From Actinostola sp. cb2023 (Eukaryota > Cnidaria > Anthozoa > Actiniaria > Actinostolidae), in NCBI GenBank assembly GCA_033675265.1, contig JAUJYZ010000781.1:310001-374000 (forward strand): a DNA stretch of 64,000 bases, given 5' to 3'. Below, one piece after another: positions 37,149-63,029 of the stretch. The position numbers were made by a program, and so were the translations under genes. Position 1 is the first letter of the stretch; each line of letters begins with the position of its first letter. A model generated the notes under the pieces. The model was given only the letters and a program-made list of their open reading frames with translations, did no database searches and had not been told where the DNA came from.

Positions 37149-37156
37149 TATAAATA
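37149..37156 (+). promoter_or_regulatory. Candidate TATA box of AGXT
   Basis: TATAAATA about 157 bp before the AGXT start codon. A start site about 30 bp downstream would give a 5' leader of about 125 nt. An in-frame stop (TGA, about 37259) between it and the ATG, with no intervening in-frame ATG, argues against an N-terminal targeting extension from this promoter. Confidence 0.5.
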
Positions 37157-37305
37157 CAGACGAGTCTGTTCATCGAATAATAATTGAATACGAGTTGGAC
37201 TAACTTTTTCCAATCATTTTGTGTTTATAATTAGTATTTGGATATTTTCAAGTTTTTCTGAATCGCTATCACTGAGAAGGGGAACTATCACCAGTACAAC
37301 TGAAC

Positions 37306-39006
37306 ATGGCCACATTTGGTTTGGAGAAGAAAACGAAAATCCCACCTCCCACCCAGCTTTTAAAGCCGTTATGGCCTCATCCAAAGATGCTGTTTGGACC
37401 AGGACCATCAAACCCTAATGCTCGAATCTATCACGCATCTTCGTTGCCTATGCTGGGGCATTTTCAAAAAGAATTCCACCTCATACTGGATGAGATTCAA
37501 GTCGGTCTACGATACGCTTTCCAAACAAATAATGTCTACACCTTGGTGTACACTGGGGCTGGCCACACTGGAATGGAAGGGTCAATGATGAATATATTGG
37601 AGAGAGGAGAGCGAATTTTAGTCTGTGAAAATGGCATGTGGGGATTGCGTGCAAAGAATATCGCAGAAAGACAAGGTACGTATGCCACGTGTCGGCCTTT
37701 ACAACGTATTAAATCAATGTGCAATATTTCTTTTTTACAGATTTATTAGACCATCTTTTGTCTACGTTCTTTAATTCTAACAATCGTCGCGAATGAAAAT
37801 CGAAGTCACTACAATACTTGTCAGTTCTTGGCAATCGAACGAACCAGTTGTTTGGGAAGCCATTTGAAAGTCGAAATAAAAATAATATTTGTGCGTGACA
37901 GCCAGTCGAACAGGTTTTTGTACAGGTTTTTCTCCGCGGGGATTTAAAAACATCACTGACATCAGCTCAAGACTGACATCCATACGGATCCAATTGAATA
38001 TGATAGATTTATAAATGTCTATGTTTATACTGTTTCCGAGTATTATTGTTTTACGATGCGCTGACACGTACTCAAGACACATCACAAAGCCATTTGAAGT
38101 TTACGTGTTATACGAAATATATAACAGGTTTTTCGAGTTTTAGAAAGAACGGCAGAAATGATCATAGTGAAAACAAAATACGTGGTTTCTTTTATTGCAC
38201 AATTTACACGTGTACACGTACCAATACAAAGATTGCGTTTTTACATCATTGACATTTTGACCTCATTGACATTTTGACCTCATAATTAATTGCATAGATT
38301 ACCATAATTATTATATTAGTGTTGACATAGCTAAGTGTAAAATCCTGACCTCCTGTTGTGATCCATATGCTCATCAGTTGTTATATAGATTTATAACCTA
38401 TAACTTATAGGGGGTTAACTTAATATGGGGATTCAGTTCCCCCTGTAGACACCCCCGTACACGCATTTCAAGATGGTTGACTGTACAAGCATGGATTGGA
38501 GAGCCATGAATACGATACAAGCTACACACAAACGTTATTTTCACATTCATTTGATAGTATAAATCTTCGGGTATATAGTGATATACTGATATACTTGGTC
38601 GTGACATAATTTTTGCAAAAGGCTGTATTATGTGTTAGTATAACCCTATTTATTACTTTGATATTAGAGCTTGATGTGAGGGTTATTAAAAAGCCACCAG
38701 GAGAGGCCTTCACGTTAGAAGACATTGAGAAGGGACTTAAAGAACACAGTCCTGCTGGAATGTTTATAACACACAGCGAGTCATCGACAGGCGTCCGTCA
38801 ACCTCTGGAAGGTGTGGCAGCACTTTGTCACAAGTAAGATTATACTGTCAATATTGTGTCAATACAAAATGATAAAATACAAATTAACAATATAGTATTG
38901 GATTAGAAAATGGATAAACTAGATAGCCATTTATTATAGTATATATTCTTCAGTCGGGTTATCACAGATGCAAGCTACTCCTTATTTTCTCCCTACTGAA
39001 ATACAT

Positions 39007-39038
<32 letters not shown>

Positions 39039-42000
39039 GGGTTAGTACTCAAGTATTCTTGTGAGAAAAGCGAACCAACTAAAACGTCTGTGGAGGCAGC
39101 ACCCAAAAAGTCCAATACAGCTAAAATGTAACACAACAGAACACAACCCAAAAATGTCCTAAAGTCCATAATGTAACCATGCATAAATGTCTTCTGCAAA
39201 TAATTTTCCAAAGTTGTATAAATAGAAAAAAAAAGTATTTTTTAAAAATTCAATCTACAGGTATAACTGTCTTGTCATTGCCGACACTGTGGCATCACTT
39301 GGTGGGACACCATTTTTTACCGATGAGCTAGAATTGGATGTCGTCTATACTGGTTCACAGAAAGTCTTTGCTTGTCCACCTGGCATCTGCCCAATCACAT
39401 TCAGTCCCAGAGCAATGTAAGAATTAATGCCATTCATTCTACAGTGGAACCCAGCCTTACGGACACCCGGTTAATATGGACACCCGGTTATTATGGACAC
39501 CCGGTTATTATGGACACTTTGTCTCATCCCAATGGTGTCCGTATTAATTAACTGGGTTCCACTGACAGTATATAATTCATTTCCTTATATTATCCATTTC
39601 ATAAACAAGCAGGAACTTGGACTGTACCATTTACTAGTATTTAGATGTATTTGTCAATAAGGTCTTTTTTTGTTTTGATAGAGAAAAGGTGCGCAATAGG
39701 AAGACCAAGGTGCCATCTTTCTACTTAGACATACTTGAAATTGGTAACTATTGGGGATGTGATGGTCAGTCACGCAGGTACTAATGTAACTTAATTTGAT
39801 ATACTGTTTATAAATCACTATATACTGCCATATATATAGATACTGCCATATATATAGAGGTTATTTACCGGTCAGGAGGTCCGGATAGGGAAAAACTGTG
39901 TCCTTGGCCTTGAAAACGGCCGTATGCTCAATACCTCAGGCACAGTTTTTCTCTATCCAGACATGACCAAGGCTAGTATAATAACTTGTTTTTTTCCTTT
40001 CTGTTATTATTCGCCTATCTGCCACGACTACTCAAAACATGAACTGCAAACAAAAAAACAAAACGAAAAGAAAAAAACAAAGCACACAACATTAAACAAA
40101 ACAAAAAAGAAAGAAAATTAAAATGTTTCTTCAAATTGTGCTGATGGGCATTCTGGTATGCTAGGATATCGCAGACCGTGGTCAGATATAGAAAATTCCG
40201 CCCACTTCAACAACCAATCAGATCAGTGCACGATTTCTTAGGATAGCAGCCCGGAAAAAAAGAACTATGTTTATATTTATTCTACATGTAATTAATGAAT
40301 CTTGTCTGTTCCAATAATCTAAGTTGCAACTGTTACTGTATTTAGATATCACCACACTGCTCCAATAAACCTTCTTTACACCTTAAGAGAAAGTCTTTCA
40401 ATGCTTGTGGAAGAGGTAAGCTACGTACATATACTTAGTAGTGTGTACAACAAAAATAGGCACTACATGGCTGTAATTAACTGTTACATACACACTGGAT
40501 ACATTTAATAATCTAGCCACCTTTGGGTCAATAAAACATCTCCATATTAATGGAGTGTCTGTAAATAACATCAAAATAATGTATGACCAGGATGTTGGTC
40601 ATGCAGCCAAAAGTGTAATAATGAAGTTATTTTTTATTTTTTATATATATTTTTTAATTTCTGTTCCACACGACCCCGCAAGCTTTAGCTTTAAATAATA
40701 TCGTGTTTAAATAAAAGTTATTGTAAAATTGTATTGTAGTGGCTACAAGGTGATGTGTCTGTTATGTGGGTTCTTACATGTATAGCTATACTGTACACAT
40801 ACTGTATCTAATTTTCAGGCAGCACAGATCGAGATCTAGTAATATTACGTACAGGTACATTGTGCATGAATGATTTTTAACAAGATGTTACAATGTATCT
40901 CTATAGGGTCTAGAGAACTCCTGGAAGAGGCACCATGACAACATTGAGATATTTTGGGAAGGACTTGAGAAAATGGGTCTTGAACTGTTTGTCAAAGACA
41001 AAGTGAGTCTATATACATTGTAATTATGTTGATTTTTAATTATGTTGGAAGGCCTAGCTATTTCAAATGCCGTACTTTCCAAGAGCTGTTGTTCTTAATT
41101 GCCCTATATCACTATGACGTCACATCAAAACAATCTATTGTTTAAACGCTAAGGATCATGGTCGCTAGAGGGGGACAAAACAGCAACAACATAAGGATTT
41201 CGCAAATAAATGTATTTTACAGACGGTCTGAAAGCGATAAAAGTCACCGAACACAGTAAATATTGTGGGAAAAGCATCGATGGACATAATATCTGGAAAC
41301 TAGCCAATTTGAAATCAAGCGAACCTCAGCAGAGCAGATTTAGTTCAAATTTCTATTGTTCTTCACGATTCTGTCCCCCTCATAAACAAGCCGTTACGTC
41401 ATAAGGGTATAGGGCAATTACTCCAAAAGAATTTGAAGCCGCCTCATTATCTATTGTTTGAAATGAGAATGGCTCATGATTAGCACAATGTCTGAACTAG
41501 GCCTAATTAAGCTGCCAATTAAACCTCCAATTTCTCTGATGATGTTTCTCAAGCATTCTGTTGTTCTATGTATATTCTCAGGACCTACGACTACCAACAC
41601 TTACAACAATCAAGATCCCTGAAGGGTATCCCAACTGGCAGGGTGTTGGCAGTTACCTCATGGAAAAGTATGTAGACTGTCATGATTGTATTATTATTTG
41701 GATATTTTAATATTAAAATTAAATATGTTAGATCTCTTTTTTTTAACTATAGGTTATACATATGTAGTTACCAACTGCTTTGGTTACTTAAGCCTGGTCC
41801 TCACTAGCGACATTAAAGCACAAGCAACATACGCAGACTCTGTAAATGCATTGCTCATTAACGGTGCTTGTCTTTTGTCACACCTATTGCATAAATGGTG
41901 TCCTAAGTCTGCGTACACTGTATGTTACTAAGTTTAATAATTTAATTTAATAATTATTGTGCTTATGCTTATGTTGCTAGTGAGGACCAGGCTTTAGTAT

Positions 42001-44254
42001 TGTAAAGTGCTATTGGATAGTTATAGTAGAAATAGTGCAATTATATATAAATATAGTATTAATTTATTATTTATATTAGTTAAGTACGTATCACTGTCAT
42101 GCAATATTCCATATATTGTACATTAAAGGGCAACTGAAGTCTAAAATTGAACGATTTTCAAATGAAAGTATATCAAATATTAAACTCGAAAATCCAATTT
42201 TTAGAACGAACTACGAATCTCTGTTCGAGATTTTCCCTTTCAAACTTACTACCTGGTGGCCATGTTGTGACGTCACTGCGTCAACCTTCCACAACTCACC
42301 CTCTTGGTTCACTCAGTTTTGGCTGAATAGTTAGTGTATTCTGGCACACAACAATGTATCATTTTACAAAGAAATCGCAGAGACGCTAGGTGTAATTTGC
42401 TATTAGAGTATCATTGAGTTACATGGAAGGTTGACGCAGTGACGTCACAACATGGCCACCAGGTAGTAAGTTTCAAAGGGAAATTCGTGAACAGAGATTC
42501 GTAGTTCGTTCTAAAAATTGGATTTTCGAGTTTTATAATAATATTTGATATCCTTTCATTTGAAAATTGTTCAATTTTAGACTTCAGTTATCCTTTAATG
42601 TTTATTCTAAAACTCATTAATAATTCATGAGCAATTGGTCCAATCAGGGTTGTCCAATCGGTCACATGCATGGATCTTTATATGCCGATAAAACACGGTC
42701 TCTCGTTCTATAAACTTCACATAATGATCATGGTAATTTACAATGGCCATAGAATAGTTTTGGCGAGTGTTTAATTGATTCATTTGCCTGATATTTCTAG
42801 ATATCACTTTGAAATTGTTGGTGGAATGGGACCAACTGTAGGAATGGTGAGTTAGTATGTAGTAGTTATATTGTTGTTCACGTCTACATTGTTATGGTCA
42901 ATTTATAATACAGTCATGTTGTGTGATTTAATACATGTTGGTGGTTTTTATAGCCATGGTTTAGATAAGGCCAGAGTTTATTTTAATGGTGCATGCTGTA
43001 TCATTGCTGATCTTAGAGTTTCCGTGGGTGTAACATGCATGTACAATGTAGTTGCAAAACTAACAAATATACATGTAATAACCATTTAACAACTGCACAG
43101 TCAAAGACTTTTGTGGTGAAAACTGCCACTACAGTGTATCTGTATACAGTGCAAGCACAAAATGGAATTAAGATTTTGATCCTTGTTGTCAAGCTGTTTT
43201 TTCTTGACTGCTTGCACAAATTTAAGGTTGCATGTAATTATAATTAATTATAGGCTAATTGCAATGATGTAATGAAATTATATTTATAAATGGCAATATG
43301 ATAAATTAACAGCATGCAGTAATACATACTAATTAAACCTCATCTTTCGTGTATGATCTAGACACTGACAGTTAATTCTAACAACTAATACTAACAATCG
43401 TATTAGAATCGGGTTAAGGTTAATGTACATGTACGTACAATTCTACAGGATATACAGTCAATGTCATTAACATTGTCCAGATAAAAAGAGATTAACACTA
43501 CTATAAATGTCACATGTCTCACAATATATTCATTTTGCACGCGTGGAATTTGCAATTTCAAAAGCAAACTATATTTATATCACCTCTGTGTGAGAACAGA
43601 ATTCAACAATTTAAATGCCCACTTTCACAGGCAGAGGTACAGTGATGTTTCCTTTTGATATTAAAATTCCACGCCCGCAAAATGAATATATGATGAGACA
43701 CCATTTTATTGCAGTAGTGTTAATCTCTTTTTGGCTGGACAACATTAATGACATTGACTATATATAAGAGCATAAAGGCTTGTATAATGCAATTTTGATC
43801 TGACATTAAATTATTGTACATGCATCATAAACAATCAAATCAGGAATTATAGTAATGTTATCACAAGTAGCATAATGATACAAATGGGTTAATTGTAAAA
43901 AATGTAAACTTCATTCAATTATGTTAATTTTAATTAAAAGTTTTAAAATGAATATAAATTATTTTAATACAAAAAAAATATTTAAATTTTATAAAACCTT
44001 CCTTTCAAAAGTTAAAAGCCCATCATATATTAGCCTCGATGTCCTTTTTGTGGACTAGATATTCCAATCTCTATAATTATTATTAATAACTGCATTACTG
44101 TAGCGTTGGATAAAACTTCTAGTTTTATAATCCTGTATAACTGGTTTACCTATAGGTGTGGCGCATTGGACTAATGGGTCACAATAGCCAGAAGGAAAAC
44201 ATTCCTACTGTACTTCGACTCTTCCAAGAGGCATATGAAGAGAATAAAAAGTGA
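37306..44254 (+). CDS. AGXT: Alanine/serine-glyoxylate aminotransferase, proximal last exon
   Basis: Nine exons: 37306-37675, 38668-38833, 39261-39416, 39682-39777, 40346-40415, 40907-41002, 41582-41667, 42801-42846, 44156-44254; 394 residues, close to the 392 of human AGT. All phases join and all introns are GT-AG. A fold-type-I PLP enzyme transferring an amino group from alanine or serine to glyoxylate, giving glycine. Visible: [13 protein letters not shown] near the N-terminus; ENGMWG with Trp112; THSESSTG with Ser162; DTVASLGG with Asp187; [12 protein letters not shown] with the PLP lysine Lys213; [15 protein letters not shown]; and VWRIGLMG, whose Arg365 matches the substrate-carboxylate Arg of the human enzyme. 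This product ends ENKK with no PTS1, so it is likely cytosolic unless the N-terminus is a cryptic mitochondrial signal. An alternative distal last exon exists (46831-46947). Confidence 0.95.
41790..41995. repeat. MITE in AGXT intron 7, AGCCTGGTCCTCACTAGC ends
   Basis: AGCCTGGTCCTCACTAGCGA is mirrored by GCTAGTGAGGACCAGGCTTT; the interior has GTAACATACAGTGTACGCAG-like inverted pairing with CATACGCAGACTC. A related single end is near 16223. Confidence 0.75.
42119..42598. repeat. Long fold-back in AGXT intron 7
   Basis: CATTAAAGGGCAACTGAAGT and the long arm through CTACCTGGTGGCCATGTTGT, GACGTCACTGCGTCAACCTT are mirrored from about 42425 to 42598. Arms are about 175 bp with few differences, so the intron RNA would form a long hairpin. 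Confidence 0.88.
43447..43764. repeat. Fold-back in AGXT intron 8
   Basis: TATACAGTCAATGTCATTAA with AAAAAGAGATTAACACTACT and ATTCATTTTGC is mirrored at about 43655-43763. The loop contains unrelated sequence. Confidence 0.8.
44156..44254 (+). CDS. AGXT: AGXT exon 9a (proximal alternative last exon)
   Basis: Phase-0 acceptor TTACCTATAG. Encodes [15 protein letters not shown]... and ends ENKK then TGA (32 residues). It aligns residue for residue with exon 9b through QK(E/D)N, so the two are duplicates. AATAAA occurs just before the stop (44243-44248) and again at 45356-45361 and 45659-45664; any could serve as poly(A) signal. Confidence 0.88.
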   Translation: MWRIGLMGHNSQKENIPTVLRLFQEAYEENKK

Positions 44255-44925
44255 ACTAGTATAATAATAGACTTATAGTGTGAAGACTTTATGATGATGA
44301 AGACTTAATTGTTTCAAGAGGGTAGCACATATGAGTGACAATCAAGCATGCAGGTTCACTGTCAATCACTTAATTAATTTATAAATGGAGGATGGACTGA
44401 TAGAGTCCATCTTTAGCACTTTGCTGGCTGTTATCTAGCCAATCAGAAGTAATTATGTTAGAGTGTTAAGTCCGGGTAGTTGTCGACACTTAATTTATAA
44501 TATTTGCATTCTAAATGTAAGGGCAATTTATTCAATGATTCAATTAATCAAATACCGGTTATATTATTTAAATATTTGTATATTTTTGAAATAAGGTGCA
44601 TAGAATACACTATATGATGTTATTTTTTGGTTTATTTTATGTCCATATTGGTTGTGCATGTATAATTTTACAGGATTTTTTAAGGACTTATTTTATTTTT
44701 AGTACACATATTTATCATTATTCTATTGTTTGTTAGCATATTTATCATGGCATATAACCATACATGCACATATGGAAGTTTGGATATTTTTGTAAATTGG
44801 GTTCCACAAGTGTGGTACAGTACATGTAGCTAGGTTTTTAAGAGTAATACACCATGCATTATTTACTTCTTCATCAATTATTTTATCACTTCAAGGACGT
44901 CATGTGTATGTTATTTATCAGGTTT

Positions 44926-45187
44926 AATAGTCCCTTTTCGCGTTCACAGATCCCATTGTAAAACCGCTGTACTTATTGACATCAGACGTATTTGTACAGG
45001 GTTAGCCTCGAGTCAGTGTAAATTATTCACAAATATCAACAAGAACACGAAAAAATGTTGAGCAGACATAAAACAATAGAAACATTTTTGAATTGCACGG
45101 ACTGTTTTCTGAATCGAGGCTAAGCCTGTACAAATGCGTCTTTTGTCAAGGACAGCGGTCATCTCTAAACAACGCGAAACTGGAGTA
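44926..45187. repeat. Inverted element with GCGAAACTGGAGTA end
   Basis: A diverged copy of the element at 25346-25538: TACAGGGTTAGCCTCGAGTC is mirrored by GAATCGAGGCTAAGCCTGTA, and GCGTCTTTTGTCAAGGACAG is shared. It lies between AGXT exons 9a and 9b. Confidence 0.7.
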
Positions 45188-45625
45188 CCGTAAATGCTCG
45201 ATTTAGAGCCCTGGGCGCTTATTAAATTTTTAGACCTCTAGGAGGAGGCACTTATTCGAGGGGGGCGCTTATTGGAAGCAGGGCACTTATTTCTTTTCTC
45301 AGATGATGAACTCAATGTTTTCTTATATACGGTACTGTAACATACATATACAGTGAATAAAAATGGCAAACATGTACTGTGCGGTACTTGGTATTAAAAC
45401 TGTATACTGGTATACTGTAAATATACGGTATTGACATACGGTATACCGTGTTTCTGTTTATCGGTAAAGTTTTATTTTAGAGAGTTGTTTCTGAATTTCT
45501 TTTAGGGGGAGGGGGTGCTTATTGGAAGGGGGGCACTTATAAAATTTTTAGACCTCTAGGGGGAGGCGCTTATTCGAGGGGGGCACTTATTGGAAGCAGG
45601 GCGCTTAATCAAGCATTTACGGTAT
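45188..45625. repeat. GGCGCTTATT repeat element
   Basis: Direct boxes GGGGCGCTTATTGGAAGCAG, GGCACTTATTCGAGG and TTTTTAGACCTCTAGGAGGA recur at about 45215-45300 and 45505-45605. The outer ends CCGTAAATGCTCGATT and AATCAAGCATTTACGG are inverted. It lies between AGXT exons 9a and 9b. Confidence 0.8.
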
Positions 45626-46224
45626 TACTAAATTTTTTGTGATGAGAAATGGAATTGTAATAAAATCATTGATGGAACAATATTATTGTTTGTTTTTCAT
45701 TTAATTTAATTAATTAAACATGTTTTATGTCACCTATCTTCTACATGCCTATAAGAGGTGCATAAGGCCTCTTTTTATGGCATTTTAAATTAATAATGGG
45801 GAAAGCAAGGTGTACATTAGTCATGATTTTGACAGAATGCTCTGGCAATATTAACGATAATTGCAACAAAACAAAAAATGGAACATGTAGCTCAGCCATG
45901 AAGGTATCAGCCTTGATTACTGTTAACAGCACATGCTTATAGATTTGTCGGCCTTTAATCCACATGGAAACTTTGCTATTGAAATGACTGATAAATATGC
46001 CAATTAAGTAATATTAATAATCTGAACTTATCCTTGCATCAATCTGGTATGTGTGCATTCAAGCCGAACTTTGGAAATTCCAAATGAACTTCGGAACCAC
46101 TCATCAAAAGTTGTGAATGTGAAACACTGAGTGTAAGTGTTGACACTGGTGCATGTCAAAACGAAAGGTGTCTGCGTTTACTAGCACTTACGAAACAGAT
46201 GGATGGAAAATTGAAGTGCTACCA

Positions 46225-46512
46225 GTATACACCTATTTCAAATAACGTTGTCGCGTTCAAAGCAACAAGCGTCAAGCCAAGACCGAAGTGAATGCTGGTT
46301 TTGTGTTGGCAATTATTTAAATCACAATTGTTTCTATAAGGACTAATTACAAAATGTGAACATTTCCACGTGCTTGTTTGCATATCACACTTCGTTCCAT
46401 AGAAAATAGGTCTGATTTAAATAATTTGCCAACACAAGACCAGCATGCACTTCGGTCTTGGCTTGACGCTTGTTGCTTTGAACACGACAACGTTATTTGA
46501 AATAGGTGTATA
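46225..46512. repeat. Hairpin element, ACGTTGT-tip family
   Basis: TATACACCTATTTCAAATAA with CGTTGTCGCGTTCAAAGCAA is mirrored at 46464-46512. The arms continue through AAGACCGAAGTG and the loop is about 150 bp. It lies about 320 bp before AGXT exon 9b. Confidence 0.8.
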
Positions 46513-46830
46513 TAACTAGAGAACAAATATGACCCCAATGACGACCTTTGGAACTGATCACTGATGCTCTACCAGCTTAATTACACACTCCTTGCTTCCA
46601 GTCTGGCCAGTTCCGAGGGTCGGGAGTTCGAATCCCATCTGCGTCAGAGATTGTTTCTCATTCTCCTCTCTTTCTAGGGCTAACGCTCAGAAGAATTTTA
46701 TGCATCCCATGGGTATCTTTATAGCAGTACTTTCCATTAATGTCTACCTAAGTTTATTAAAGCTGTCACATTTGATTATCAATAGTGTTTGTTGCTAACC
46801 AGTATTGGTATGTTTGTTTACTCTGTATAG

Positions 46831-46947
46831 GTCTGGAGGGTTGGTTTTATGGGGTTCAACAGCCAAAAGGACAACGTTTACTTAGCACTCCGCATGTTCA
46901 AAGAAGGTTTTGATAGATGCTCCGTCGCAGCACCAGCACGACTATAG
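46831..46947 (+). CDS. AGXT: AGXT exon 9b (distal alternative last exon, PTS1-like end)
   Basis: Acceptor TTTACTCTGTATAG, phase 0 like exon 9a. Encodes 38 residues beginning VWRVGFMGFNSQKDN and ending SVAAPARL then TAG. Spliced to exon 8 (donor at 42847) it would give a 400-residue enzyme. The substrate Arg is kept in VWRVG. The C-terminal tripeptide ARL fits the peroxisomal PTS1 pattern [SAC][KRH][LM]. AATAAA follows at 47198-47203. No other AGXT exon is repeated nearby, which favours an alternative exon over a second gene. Use by splicing is inferred. Confidence 0.82.
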   Translation, partial: VWRVGFMGFNSQKDNVYLALRMFKEGFDRCSVAAPARL

Positions 46948-48032
46948 AATAATGAATGAACATTGTTACAGATTTAATTTAAAAGTTGTAGTTTTATTGT
47001 TATTAATAGTTATTGACAGGCCAGATTGGAAAAAATATATATATATATCTGTAGTATAACAGTACTATAGTATTTATTATATGTTAAGTAGTAAAAATAT
47101 AAAAATACCAGTTTGTGTAAGATTTATATCATCATTTTATTTTCTCAATTATTGTCAGCAGTACTGTACTACTCTAGCTCTTCCGAACAAAATATTAAAT
47201 AAATTATACAGATATTGAATATCCATACAAAATGCTGGATACACAACCTCTTTGGTGGCAAACTTAAACACCCTTTTCGCACAATTCAGAAGGCCCTGGT
47301 TGTTCAAAGAGTGGATAGCGCTACATTGTGTATCTGTTGGATAAATCCTTACCCTGGCCAGGGGATAGCACTATATAGCTTATATCCACTATTTGAACAA
47401 CCATGCAGGACCATGCAGCTAGTACAAGTTTGACAAGCTTTCTATACGTACCTCCTACAAGTAATTGCACAATGGTTGTCAGTTTTGATTCATGCAATTC
47501 CCATTGTACTGATTCATTCAACAAAAATAATATATTGTGTAATAGAGTCGTCTTCATATGAGTGGGAACGTTATGGTACCGTGCTGTGGGCAATTCAAGG
47601 TCTTATGTACAGCTGCACAAAATATTGTACTGGGGGGACAATACATAGAACGACAATAGAACAATAGCCAGGACATTTGTGCAGCTACACGAAGACCTGA
47701 CCATGCTGTGCCACATTGAAAGAGTTTGAATGGATGACATGTATCTGCACGCTTTTTGGTTCTATCAGAAAGGAAGCCCTTTCAGTGTCACGGTACCGAA
47801 GGTTTCCGACTCACACGAAAACAACGGTATTTACGGTACTAAGCAATTACATGTAAGTACTTTACATACAAAAACTGTCTAGTCCTGAGCTGAACCAGCA
47901 AATGGACACTACTCCTTGAGTAAACAAATAACTGTACAACCTGTCAATACCAAACAACCCAACAAGTTCTGTTCAAAACGTTTTTGTTGCTTGTTACAAC
48001 TACATACATGTAAGTTTGCGTTGACTTCAAGG
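46948..48032. other. Convergent 3' ends of AGXT and GART
   Basis: Holds a + strand AATAAA at 47198-47203 (AGXT 9b) and a - strand AATAAA at 47141-47136, the nearest I find for GART. The two 3' untranslated regions may therefore overlap. Between them lie a diverged GGCCC-GGTTG MITE (47287-47410) and an insertion-bearing MITE (47544-47826). Confidence 0.5.
47544..47826. mobile_element. MITE with a nested hairpin
   Basis: AGAGTCGTCTTCATATGAGT at the left and CGACTCACACGAAAAC at the right are diverged ends of the GTCGTTTTCGTATGAGTGGG family. At about 47607-47700 it is interrupted by the GGTCTTCGTGTAGCTG hairpin also seen at 10401-10592. If GART ends where its nearest poly(A) signal lies, this is in its 3' untranslated region. 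Confidence 0.8.
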
Positions 48033-60762
<12,730 letters not shown>

Positions 60763-61490
60763 CGTTGTCAGTCGGCAACACGAACAACTTGAAGTTGAAG
60801 GAAGATTTACAAATCCACGTGGATTGATGTCATTTGTAAGGTGGGAGGGGAGGGGAGGGAGATGTTGACCGCAAGTCAAATTGGGCTCCCTGTGCATTGC
60901 CTGTCCACTAGTCAGATTTATCTGATTTATCCAAGAGACCGTATGCTCTCTTGATTTATCTGATTGTTATATATATAAATATCAATTTCTAGATAGAAAG
61001 GATAACTCCATTCACAATGTCAGTCAATACCCGGAAATAAAAAAAACCGATGCCAAACTTTTGTTGGGCTCCCTGTGTCGTGCCTGTCCAAACGTACCGG
61101 TTGAAAGTCAGTTTGGTTTTCAATATTTTCGCCACAACTTTCACATTTTTGTAGATAACTTGGTAGGGTTCTGTTTGTCAGTATACTATTCAAGAGTTTA
61201 TAATAACCGGTCACTTACTCCGTATCCTGTGAACAGGCTCCCCGCGGACAGGCTCTCAGTAGGGGAGGGAAAGAGAGGAGGATACGGAAAGGGAACTGGA
61301 GGGGGAGAGCCCTAATGGAGCTAGAACCTGTTCACAGTGCACAAATTAAAATGAGTATTTCTGATTCCACTATTTTTGCATATAAAGGTCAAATTATGCT
61401 AGTCTCCATATGATCGCAGCCGATGTTAGTGTTGTCACGTTACGCACCCTCCCGTTGCGTGACGACACTAAGAACGGAAGTAGATGACAC
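60763..61490. promoter_or_regulatory. Divergent intergenic region of GART and the GPCR
   Basis: About 730 bp between the two opposed start codons, so promoters must lie here or overlap it. Two direct copies of GGGCTCCCTGTG followed by TGCCTGTCCA occur at about 60883 and 61070. A G-rich AGGGGAGGGGAGGGAG box lies at about 60845. A partial palindrome with GTTGCGTGACGACACTAAGA sits at about 61440-61475. No clear TATA. Confidence 0.5.
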
Positions 61491-63029
61491 GTGATCCTGG
61501 CAGGCACCAACACAACCCTTCTATGTCACGCTATATACGATAGCTACAACATGGAACCTCACGATGATACTAATTCTACGACTTTGCTAATGGTGAATCA
61601 GGTCTTGACGACGGTTGCTGGTTCCTTATCGATATGTGGAACCATCTCTATCTTTATTACGTTTGCTCTTTGGCGGGAAATGCGAACTTCATCGAGGAGA
61701 ATTCTTGTTTTTATATCGATTGGCGACCTTCTCACAGCCATAGTCAACGTAACTGGTGTGTCCATGACGTCTCTTCACGGTCCGCTCTGCCAAGTGCAAG
61801 CTTTTATCAACATCGCTGCCATCTTGTCTTCGTTCTTTTGGACAGTGTATTTGTCACTGTTTCTTTACCTATCGCTCTGTGGCATGGGAAGCGAGACGGA
61901 GAGACGTGTGATGATTGCGTTTCACGTCTCCGCATGGGGTATCCCCTTAGTAGTTGCTGTATCAGCGGCAATCGACAATGCATTTGGCCCAACTACGATC
62001 TCTGATGGATGGTGCTGGATTTCGTATCAATTGCCTTCGAATTTGTTATTGTTTTGGATGCTCTTCGCCGGTAAAGGATGGGAAATTTTTTCGTACCTTG
62101 CCATTTCTGTTTTCTATGTGAAAGCTAAGCTGCTTCTGAAGCGAAAGGTGAGAATGGAACAGATTCAGTGACTATAATAAGGGACGTAGGGGCGTATGGG
62201 CGTACGTAGGGACGTAGTAGGGGCGTAGTAGGGCCGTTCGTAGGGGCATAGTAGGGGCGTACGTAGGGGCGTACGTAGGGGCATATAGGGGCATAGTAGG
62301 GGCGTACGTAGGGGCGTACTTATAGGGGCGAGCGTAGGAGTGTACGTAGGGGCGTAGTAGGGGCGTATGTAAGGGCATAGTAGGGGCGTTACGTACGTAG
62401 GGGCGATGAGCGTATTAGGGCATAGTAGGGGCGTTACGTACGTAGGGGCGATGAGCGTATTAGGGGCGTACGTAGGGGCGTACGTAGGGGCGTAGTAGGG
62501 GCGTTACGTACGTAGGGGCGATGAGCGTATTAGGGGCGTACGTAGGGGCGTACGTAGGAGCGTACGTAGGGGCGTAGTAGGGGCGTACGTTGGGGCGTAC
62601 GTAGGAGCGTATAGTAGGGGCGTTACGTACGTAGGGGCGATGAGCGTATTAGGGGCGTGCGTAGGGGCGTACGTAGGGGCGTACGAAGGGGCGTACGTAG
62701 GGGCATAGGGAGGGTTACACGAGGGGGCAGCTACAATCGATATACATTTTATGGATGATATTTTTTTAGTTCTTAAAACTTAGTTCCTTGTTGTTTGACT
62801 CTATGTTGGATTTTCTTAGTTTCAGTATCCCAACTCCAGTACTCCATTTCTGACCACAGCCTCGTTGCTAGCCGCGCGGAAAGCCGATCGGAAATTCACA
62901 TTTATTCCTGTCATATTCATTCTATTGCGACTGTGGGGAACTGTTCGCTTTATACGGTATGCTGCCTGTCTGCCTGGGTGTCAAGGGGTAGGACCTGCTC
63001 ATCAATATGTTTGGCTTCGTATTTTACAT
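61491..63029 (+). CDS. GPR157-like seven-helix receptor (3' end beyond window)
   Basis: Two exons: 61491-62147 and 62826-63029, joined in phase 0; the donor CATGTAAGTG after the second shows that the gene continues. The first ATG is at 61491; a second at 61551 (MEPHDDTN) is also plausible and gives a short N-glycosylatable N-terminus. Helices: about 36-60, 72-92, 102-130, 140-166, 188-212 and, in exon 2, FTFIPVIFILLRLWGTVRFI. The Cys of GPLCQVQ and of DGWCWI can form the usual disulphide. DGWCWI, LFAGKGWEIFSY and the helix 6 motif point to the GPR157/cAMP-receptor-like group of G-protein-coupled receptors. Helix 7 and the tail are not seen before 64000. The intron contains a 12-bp minisatellite. 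Confidence 0.82.
62181..62715. repeat. Minisatellite GGGGCGTACGTA
   Basis: About 535 bp of 9-12-bp units GGGGCGTACGTA and variants (GGGGCGTAGTA, GGGGCATAGTA), with a higher-order block GCGTTACGTACGTAGGGGCG plus ATGAGCGTATTA repeated at least four times (about 62386-62660). It starts about 35 bp after the GPCR exon 1 donor. Confidence 0.93.

Follow-up and report, generated by a model that had tools for sequence, protein, structure and literature searches.

Introduction

Alanine-glyoxylate aminotransferase (AGT), the product of AGXT, is a glyoxylate-detoxifying enzyme and a textbook example of an enzyme that changes organelle with diet. Primary hyperoxaluria type 1 can result when it is mistargeted. 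Here we describe AGXT of the sea anemone Actinostola sp. cb2023, which lies in a stretch of 64,000 nucleotides (the window: contig JAUJYZ010000781.1, positions 310,001 to 374,000; coordinates below count from its first nucleotide). The gene has two homologous last exons, one proximal and one distal, and only the distal one ends in a tripeptide resembling the C-terminal peroxisomal targeting signal type 1 (PTS1).

In mammals, the localization of AGT (AGXT1) is varied by means of alternative N-terminal starts, which make the mitochondrial signal optional while the C-terminal PTS1 is retained (PMC8779045, PMC3328432). The initial annotation of the window had this background right. The Actinostola gene is alike in that the same enzyme, from one gene, would have a variable localization and a C-terminal PTS1. 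It differs in that here it is the PTS1 that is optional, and no mitochondrial leader is evident.

Peroxisomal isoforms generated by alternative splicing have been described for pumpkin hydroxypyruvate reductase, Ustilago GAPDH, Aspergillus PGK and Yarrowia malate dehydrogenase (PMC3798809). In these plant and fungal cases, as proposed here, there is one gene and splicing decides on the peroxisomal isoform. However, in Yarrowia the intron differs in size by four nucleotides and in Ustilago a C-terminal extension is added, whereas Actinostola is an animal and has a duplicated, homologous last exon. Vertebrate ACOXL and USP2 are animal proteins having isoforms with and without PTS1 (PMC8919083), but they are other enzymes, and the available text of that paper does not mention homologous duplicated last exons. 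Isoforms that gain a PTS1 by splicing are already known, and the literature searched yielded no report of duplicated AGXT last exons. No AGXT with alternative last exons was present among the full-text matches listed, a set that leaves most subscription journals outside its scope.

An AGXT1 gene with two last exons

The gene was reconstructed from its spliced reading frame in the window, and consists of eight exons on the plus strand followed by two homologous last exons in phase 0. Exon 1 (37306..37675) carries the start codon and is 85% identical to the Actinia protein. It is followed by exon 2 (38668..38833), exon 3 (39261..39416), exon 4 (39682..39777), exon 5 (40346..40415), exon 6 (40907..41002), exon 7 (41582..41667) and exon 8 (42801..42846), the end of which is also the end of a deposited protein fragment, P0121. 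Exon 8 has a donor common to both last exons (gtgagt; GAATG/gtgagtta, with the exon ending at 42846) in phase 0, and the frame therefore continues into either of them.

The proximal last exon (44156..44254, plus strand) follows the acceptor acctatag/GTGTGG, and has 32 codons before a stop that ends at 44254. Its C-terminus is ENKK, with no PTS1, which is the same type of end as in Actinia isoform X2. The distal last exon (46831..46947, plus strand) follows the acceptor ctgtatag/GTCTGG, and has 38 codons (VWRVGFMGFNSQKDNVYLALRMFKEGFDRCSVAAPARL) with a stop that ends at 46947. It ends in AAPARL, the ARL codons being at 46936..46944. Exons 1 to 8 join to give an uninterrupted frame, which yields a protein of 394 residues with the proximal exon and 400 with the distal one, residues 1-362 being common to both. 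The arrangement is that of alternative last exons, namely two homologous exons that share a phase and have separate acceptors and stops. Such a pair had been proposed from the sequence, and both members were found where they had been placed, with frames intact and a homology at E about 1e-6.

Residues 9-392 match 4cbs_A, a solved chain of serine--pyruvate aminotransferase, with E 5.1e-126, and among the homologues a protein of Actinia tenebrosa is 86% identical and one of Nematostella 80%. The GSQK motif is present in exon 3, where YTGSQKV aligns with YSGSQKA of 4cbs; its lysine is presumably the one that binds pyridoxal phosphate. In the last exon, VWRVG aligns with VLRIG of 4cbs, and its Arg is invariant in 13 of 13 alignment rows, both Actinostola exons included. 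We take this residue to be the substrate carboxylate-binding arginine, and its retention in both exons, as claimed previously, is borne out. Judged by these matches, the gene is AGXT1, a class V, fold type I alanine/serine-glyoxylate aminotransferase. The alignment with 4cbs also suggests that the last exon encodes part of the C-terminal domain. We expect both products to be active, because both tails encode the same segment and retain the putative substrate-binding Arg. A run of 31 G in intron 2 (39007-39037) is a possible weak spot of the assembly.

Comparison of the C-termini

The PTS1 consensus is [S/A/C]-[K/R/H]-L, which ARL fits (PMC6770196), and ARL is the PTS1 of zebrafish Gnpat (PMC8919083). 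It is also the end of a lancelet AGXT (P0081). The distal isoform (PARL) thus ends in a consensus tripeptide, and the proximal one (NKK) does not. The strict tripeptide [SAC][KRH][LM] is found at 19 of the 5985 stop-terminated tripeptides of the window (0.3%). The same strict consensus ends 51 of the 120 homologues listed (7991 found), one of them with ARL.

The C-termini were compared in an alignment of 13 rows, made up of 11 homologues chosen from the 120 listed and the two Actinostola exons. The distal tail, SVAAP-ARL, reaches as far as the PTS1-like tails of Acropora (PKAQL), Pocillopora (PKSQI), a coral-like protein (PKSQL), Trichoplax (KSSL), lancelet (QARL) and starfish (SSKL), and its ARL stands at the position of the other PTS1-like ends. 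The proximal tail, Actinia isoform X2 (KAEK) and Nematostella isoform X1 (SAGK) are all shorter and lack a PTS1. The earlier claim that only the distal exon has a PTS1-like end therefore holds. A Cys in the distal tail aligns with a Cys of opossum AGT, where the proximal tail is gapped and ends in ENKK. The helix that directly precedes the PTS1 belongs to the PEX5 contact in human AGT, which is cytosolic when it lacks the PTS1 (PMC3328432).

Pocillopora damicornis has a pair of AGXT-like proteins, P0004 (end KNS) and P0015 (end SQI), on contigs of the same size (1127691). Corals may divide tagged and untagged AGXT between gene copies rather than between exons.

Signs that the distal exon is maintained

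Nine AGXT proteins and both Actinostola isoforms were searched with tblastn against the window and eight other loci, and the rows of four of the 11 queries were examined. The distal exon was matched by the proximal isoform (E 8.8e-7), by Actinia (2.4e-6) and by Acropora AGXT (1.5e-6). Among these rows, the best match in the window outside the AGXT exons had E 0.30.

Comparison of the last exons across 28 aligned codons gives a proportion of synonymous differences (pS) of 0.76 and of replacement differences (pN) of 0.27. Synonymous sites are thus saturated and replacement sites are not. A neutral simulation was run with the proximal exon as ancestor, at six divergences with 1500 runs each. At most 16 of 1500 runs (about 1%) at any divergence reached pS>=0.70 and pN<=0.30 with no stop, a figure which is independent of the choice of conserved positions. 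Within the first 28 residues the distal copy retains 13 of the 16 positions that are invariant across seven cnidarian rows (counted by eye), the other three being altered from E to D, L to M and A to G. Twelve of the 13 retained positions were followed in the simulation, and were kept in 6.1% of runs at divergence 0.1 and 0.7% at 0.2, although these figures lean towards selection because the simulation omits the three changed positions. At the same two divergences, no run combined pS 0.70 with pN at most 0.30. The substitution pattern of the pair gives signs of selection on the distal copy.

Splice acceptors were scored with a small matrix built from the seven other acceptors of the AGXT gene. 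The distal acceptor scored 7.4 and the proximal one 3.8, scores as high being found at 0.9% and 9.7% respectively of the 3504 AGs in the window. A motif scan located overlapping ATTAAA/AATAAA poly(A)-signal matches 3' of the distal exon (47194..47203, plus strand), the AATAAA being 251 nt after the distal stop. The first three matches after the proximal stop, at 45221, 45356 and 45393 (45221..45398, plus strand), all fall within an interspersed repeat, and further ones are at 45659 and 45713. As read from the sequence, each last exon brings a different 3' untranslated region. On all of this evidence, the distal exon has the appearance of coding sequence that has been maintained.

The intron between the last exons holds several repeats. 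The interspersed repeat just mentioned is of about 440 bp (45186-45625) with GGGCGCTTATT motifs, and has at least 39 further copies at 90-97% identity (40 of 5556 candidates scored). Directly 5' of the distal exon is another (46608-46749), which by eye resembles a short interspersed nuclear element of tRNA-derived appearance with a GTTCGAATCC box; its copies are at 73-91% identity (40 of 347 candidates scored). An inverted repeat at 46226-46512 has 96-nt arms that are 93% complementary and 95 nt apart, similar to a miniature inverted-repeat transposable element.

Age of the duplication

A FastTree phylogeny of 39 columns unites the proximal exon with Actinia X2 and Nematostella X1, at local supports of 0.80 and 0.83. 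The distal exon is separate, adjoining non-cnidarian sequences (support 0.73). Support is weak on 39 columns, and the tree therefore does not date the duplication, which is probably old. If the tree is right, the duplication predates the split of Actinia and Nematostella from Actinostola, and their genes should have, or have lost, the distal exon.

Search for other copies and for a mitochondrial leader

The assembly searched comprises 424,152,321 bases in 1594 contigs. A protein search (11 of 11 candidates scored) gave nine matches, namely eight AGXT exons, with the distal exon listed once, and a 27% relative on contig C88. No second AGXT1 was found in this search beyond that relative; exon 8 and the proximal exon were unlisted, showing that exons of very small size escape it. 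We rejected a second tandem AGXT gene, as no further exons 1-8 were found in the window by tblastn or in the assembly by this protein search. Within these limits, the distal exon would be the only source of peroxisomal AGXT1 found in the Actinostola assembly.

A PF00266 profile search of the genome (12 of 19 candidates scored) gave 12 matches, none in the AGXT gene, so this search missed its split exons. The six match translations examined look, as far as we can judge, like other class V enzymes. Two DNA searches aimed at the exon pair on the other haplotype gave the locus itself and repeats, with 40 candidates scored out of 5556 in the first and 40 out of 347 in the second. The second, with the distal-exon flank, gave no copy of the distal exon among the candidates scored. 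A copy on the other haplotype is possible.

Upstream of the start codon there is an in-frame TGA (37273..37275, plus strand). A good acceptor at 37235 precedes it, and none of the three AGs that lie between this stop and the ATG scores above -0.65. The stop is evidence against a mitochondrial leader that is either contiguous or spliced at 37235, and a leader by way of an upstream start is considered unlikely. A weak acceptor 5' of the ATG is possible, because the exon 2 and exon 8 acceptors themselves score just 0.45 and 0.30, but the kind of leader with which, by eye, Nematostella isoform X1 begins is unlikely in Actinostola AGXT. A TATAAATA box-like sequence, read by eye and of presumed function only, is located about 150 nt 5' of the start codon (37149..37156, plus strand).

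Proposed mechanism and alternatives

The reading that we favour, and hold to be the probable one though some way from secure, is that the last exon of AGXT1 is duplicated, and that exon 8 splices either to the untagged proximal exon or to the ARL-tagged distal exon, so setting access to the peroxisome. The last coding exon of the only AGXT1 found in the assembly would have been duplicated, probably long ago. Splicing of exon 8 to the proximal exon, with its own stop and poly(A) signals, would give an enzyme with no recognizable targeting signal, which is probably cytosolic. Splicing to the distal exon would give the same enzyme with a C-terminal ARL, which PEX5 should read as a PTS1. We infer that both exons are used, that the distal form is imported, and that the choice is regulated by cell type or condition. 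A clean switch between cytosol and peroxisome would need the isoforms to be expressed separately.

Several observations weigh against this reading. The published Actinostola genome, from a hydrothermal-vent animal, is 83.2% BUSCO-complete (PMC10803348), and a second AGXT could therefore be missing from the assembly. Its genes were predicted de novo and from homology, with RNA unmentioned in the available text (PMC10803348). The annotated Actinostola sp. cb2023 fragment, P0121, is 100% identical over 66% of a 112-residue distal-isoform query and reaches only to the end of exon 8, including neither last exon. The exon pair was not found in a second species: a tail-region query gave no candidate, although it also missed coral proteins sharing several 5-residue words with it, and the 112-residue query gave only the same-species fragment and an Acropora-like protein, neither of distal type. 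The homologue set was clustered at 90% identity, which can hide sister isoforms of Actinia X2 and Nematostella X1. The coral proteins P0003 (RRS), P0004 (KNS) and P0007 (FQP) also have no PTS1-like end, so that loss of PTS1 is not rare and untagged forms are not peculiar to anemones. The distal tail has three more residues after the aligned Cys than opossum AGT. Lastly, AGT is recognized in oligomeric form, in a Pex5p-(AGT)2-Pex5p complex (PMC3328432). Binding of dimers by PEX5 means that the untagged form could enter as part of a mixed dimer, and the two compartments need not be cleanly separated. The original proposal, that the choice of last exon controls localization, accordingly fared unevenly: the homology, the PTS1, the signs of selection and the failure to find a second AGXT in the assembly or an evident leader all speak for it, and use of the distal exon, import and regulation are presumed, with a division between compartments that may not be clean.

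This last point leads to an alternative that we regard as unlikely, in which both exons are used and PEX5, as a carrier of folded dimers, takes the proximal form into peroxisomes along with the distal one. Exon choice would then tune the dose of import, without a clean split. The Pex5p complex just described and the identity of the two isoforms over residues 1-362 are consistent with it, but isoforms made by separate cells would not mix. Slightly less likely again is that the distal exon is the decaying remnant of an ancestral PTS1 exon and is rarely if ever included in the transcript, so that AGT is cytosolic. The distal exon is indeed the more diverged, being identical to the proximal exon at 14 of 32 positions and to Actinia X2 at 15 of 34, compared to 22 of 32 for proximal exon and Actinia X2. 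Its three altered conserved residues, and the failure of both protein searches to find a relative that has it, fit the same idea. On the other hand, its frame, acceptor, stop and PTS1 are all intact despite saturated synonymous change.

It is improbable that the tails differ in kinetics, stability or expression, with ARL incidental. The different 3' untranslated regions, and the likely position of the encoded segment in the C-terminal domain, would allow this. However, a tripeptide as infrequent among the stop-terminated tripeptides of the window as the strict PTS1 occurs here at the homologous place, and the same consensus ends a large part of the homologues listed. We consider it very improbable that the distal exon comes from a collapsed second AGXT gene, through an artefact of the assembly or the gene model. 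The Pocillopora pair on contigs of equal size suggests that corals may have tandem AGXT genes, but exons 1-8 of another gene were found neither in the window (tblastn) nor in the assembly (protein search).

Neighbouring and related genes

Further along the window are exons of a GART-type gene with phosphoribosylglycinamide synthetase domains (57691-60897, minus strand) and an open reading frame for a secretin-type seven-transmembrane receptor (61491-62168, plus strand).

Several contigs of the assembly carry exons of hydroxyacid oxidase (PF01070), a possible source of glyoxylate in peroxisomes, and no PTS1-bearing end was recognized in the four flanks examined. One such FMN_dh gene, of hydroxyacid/glycolate oxidase type (locus L053, G000:C966:20367-21337), contains a stretch of 25 residues, SRSVDAIIVSNHGGRQLDGVLATVS, repeated head to tail with a period of about 75 bp, and an open stretch of 229 residues with nine copies of NHGGRQLDG. 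The SRSVDAIIVSNHGGRQLDGVLATVS repeat is also found in L049 and L050 and on contigs C82, C822 and C1355. It looks like either an in-gene amplification of a conserved stretch or a minisatellite derived from coding sequence, in several paralogues. We take the repeated stretch to be the flavin-site segment.

Implications

If the reading that we favour is true, Actinostola would have arrived at an independent evolutionary solution to the same problem, in which the same enzyme is controlled from the opposite end and the PTS1 is an optional exon. We suggest, more tentatively, that in sea anemones an old duplication of the last exon may let the cell switch its handling of glyoxylate between peroxisome and cytosol by way of the C-terminus, as a mirror of the N-terminal switch of mammals.

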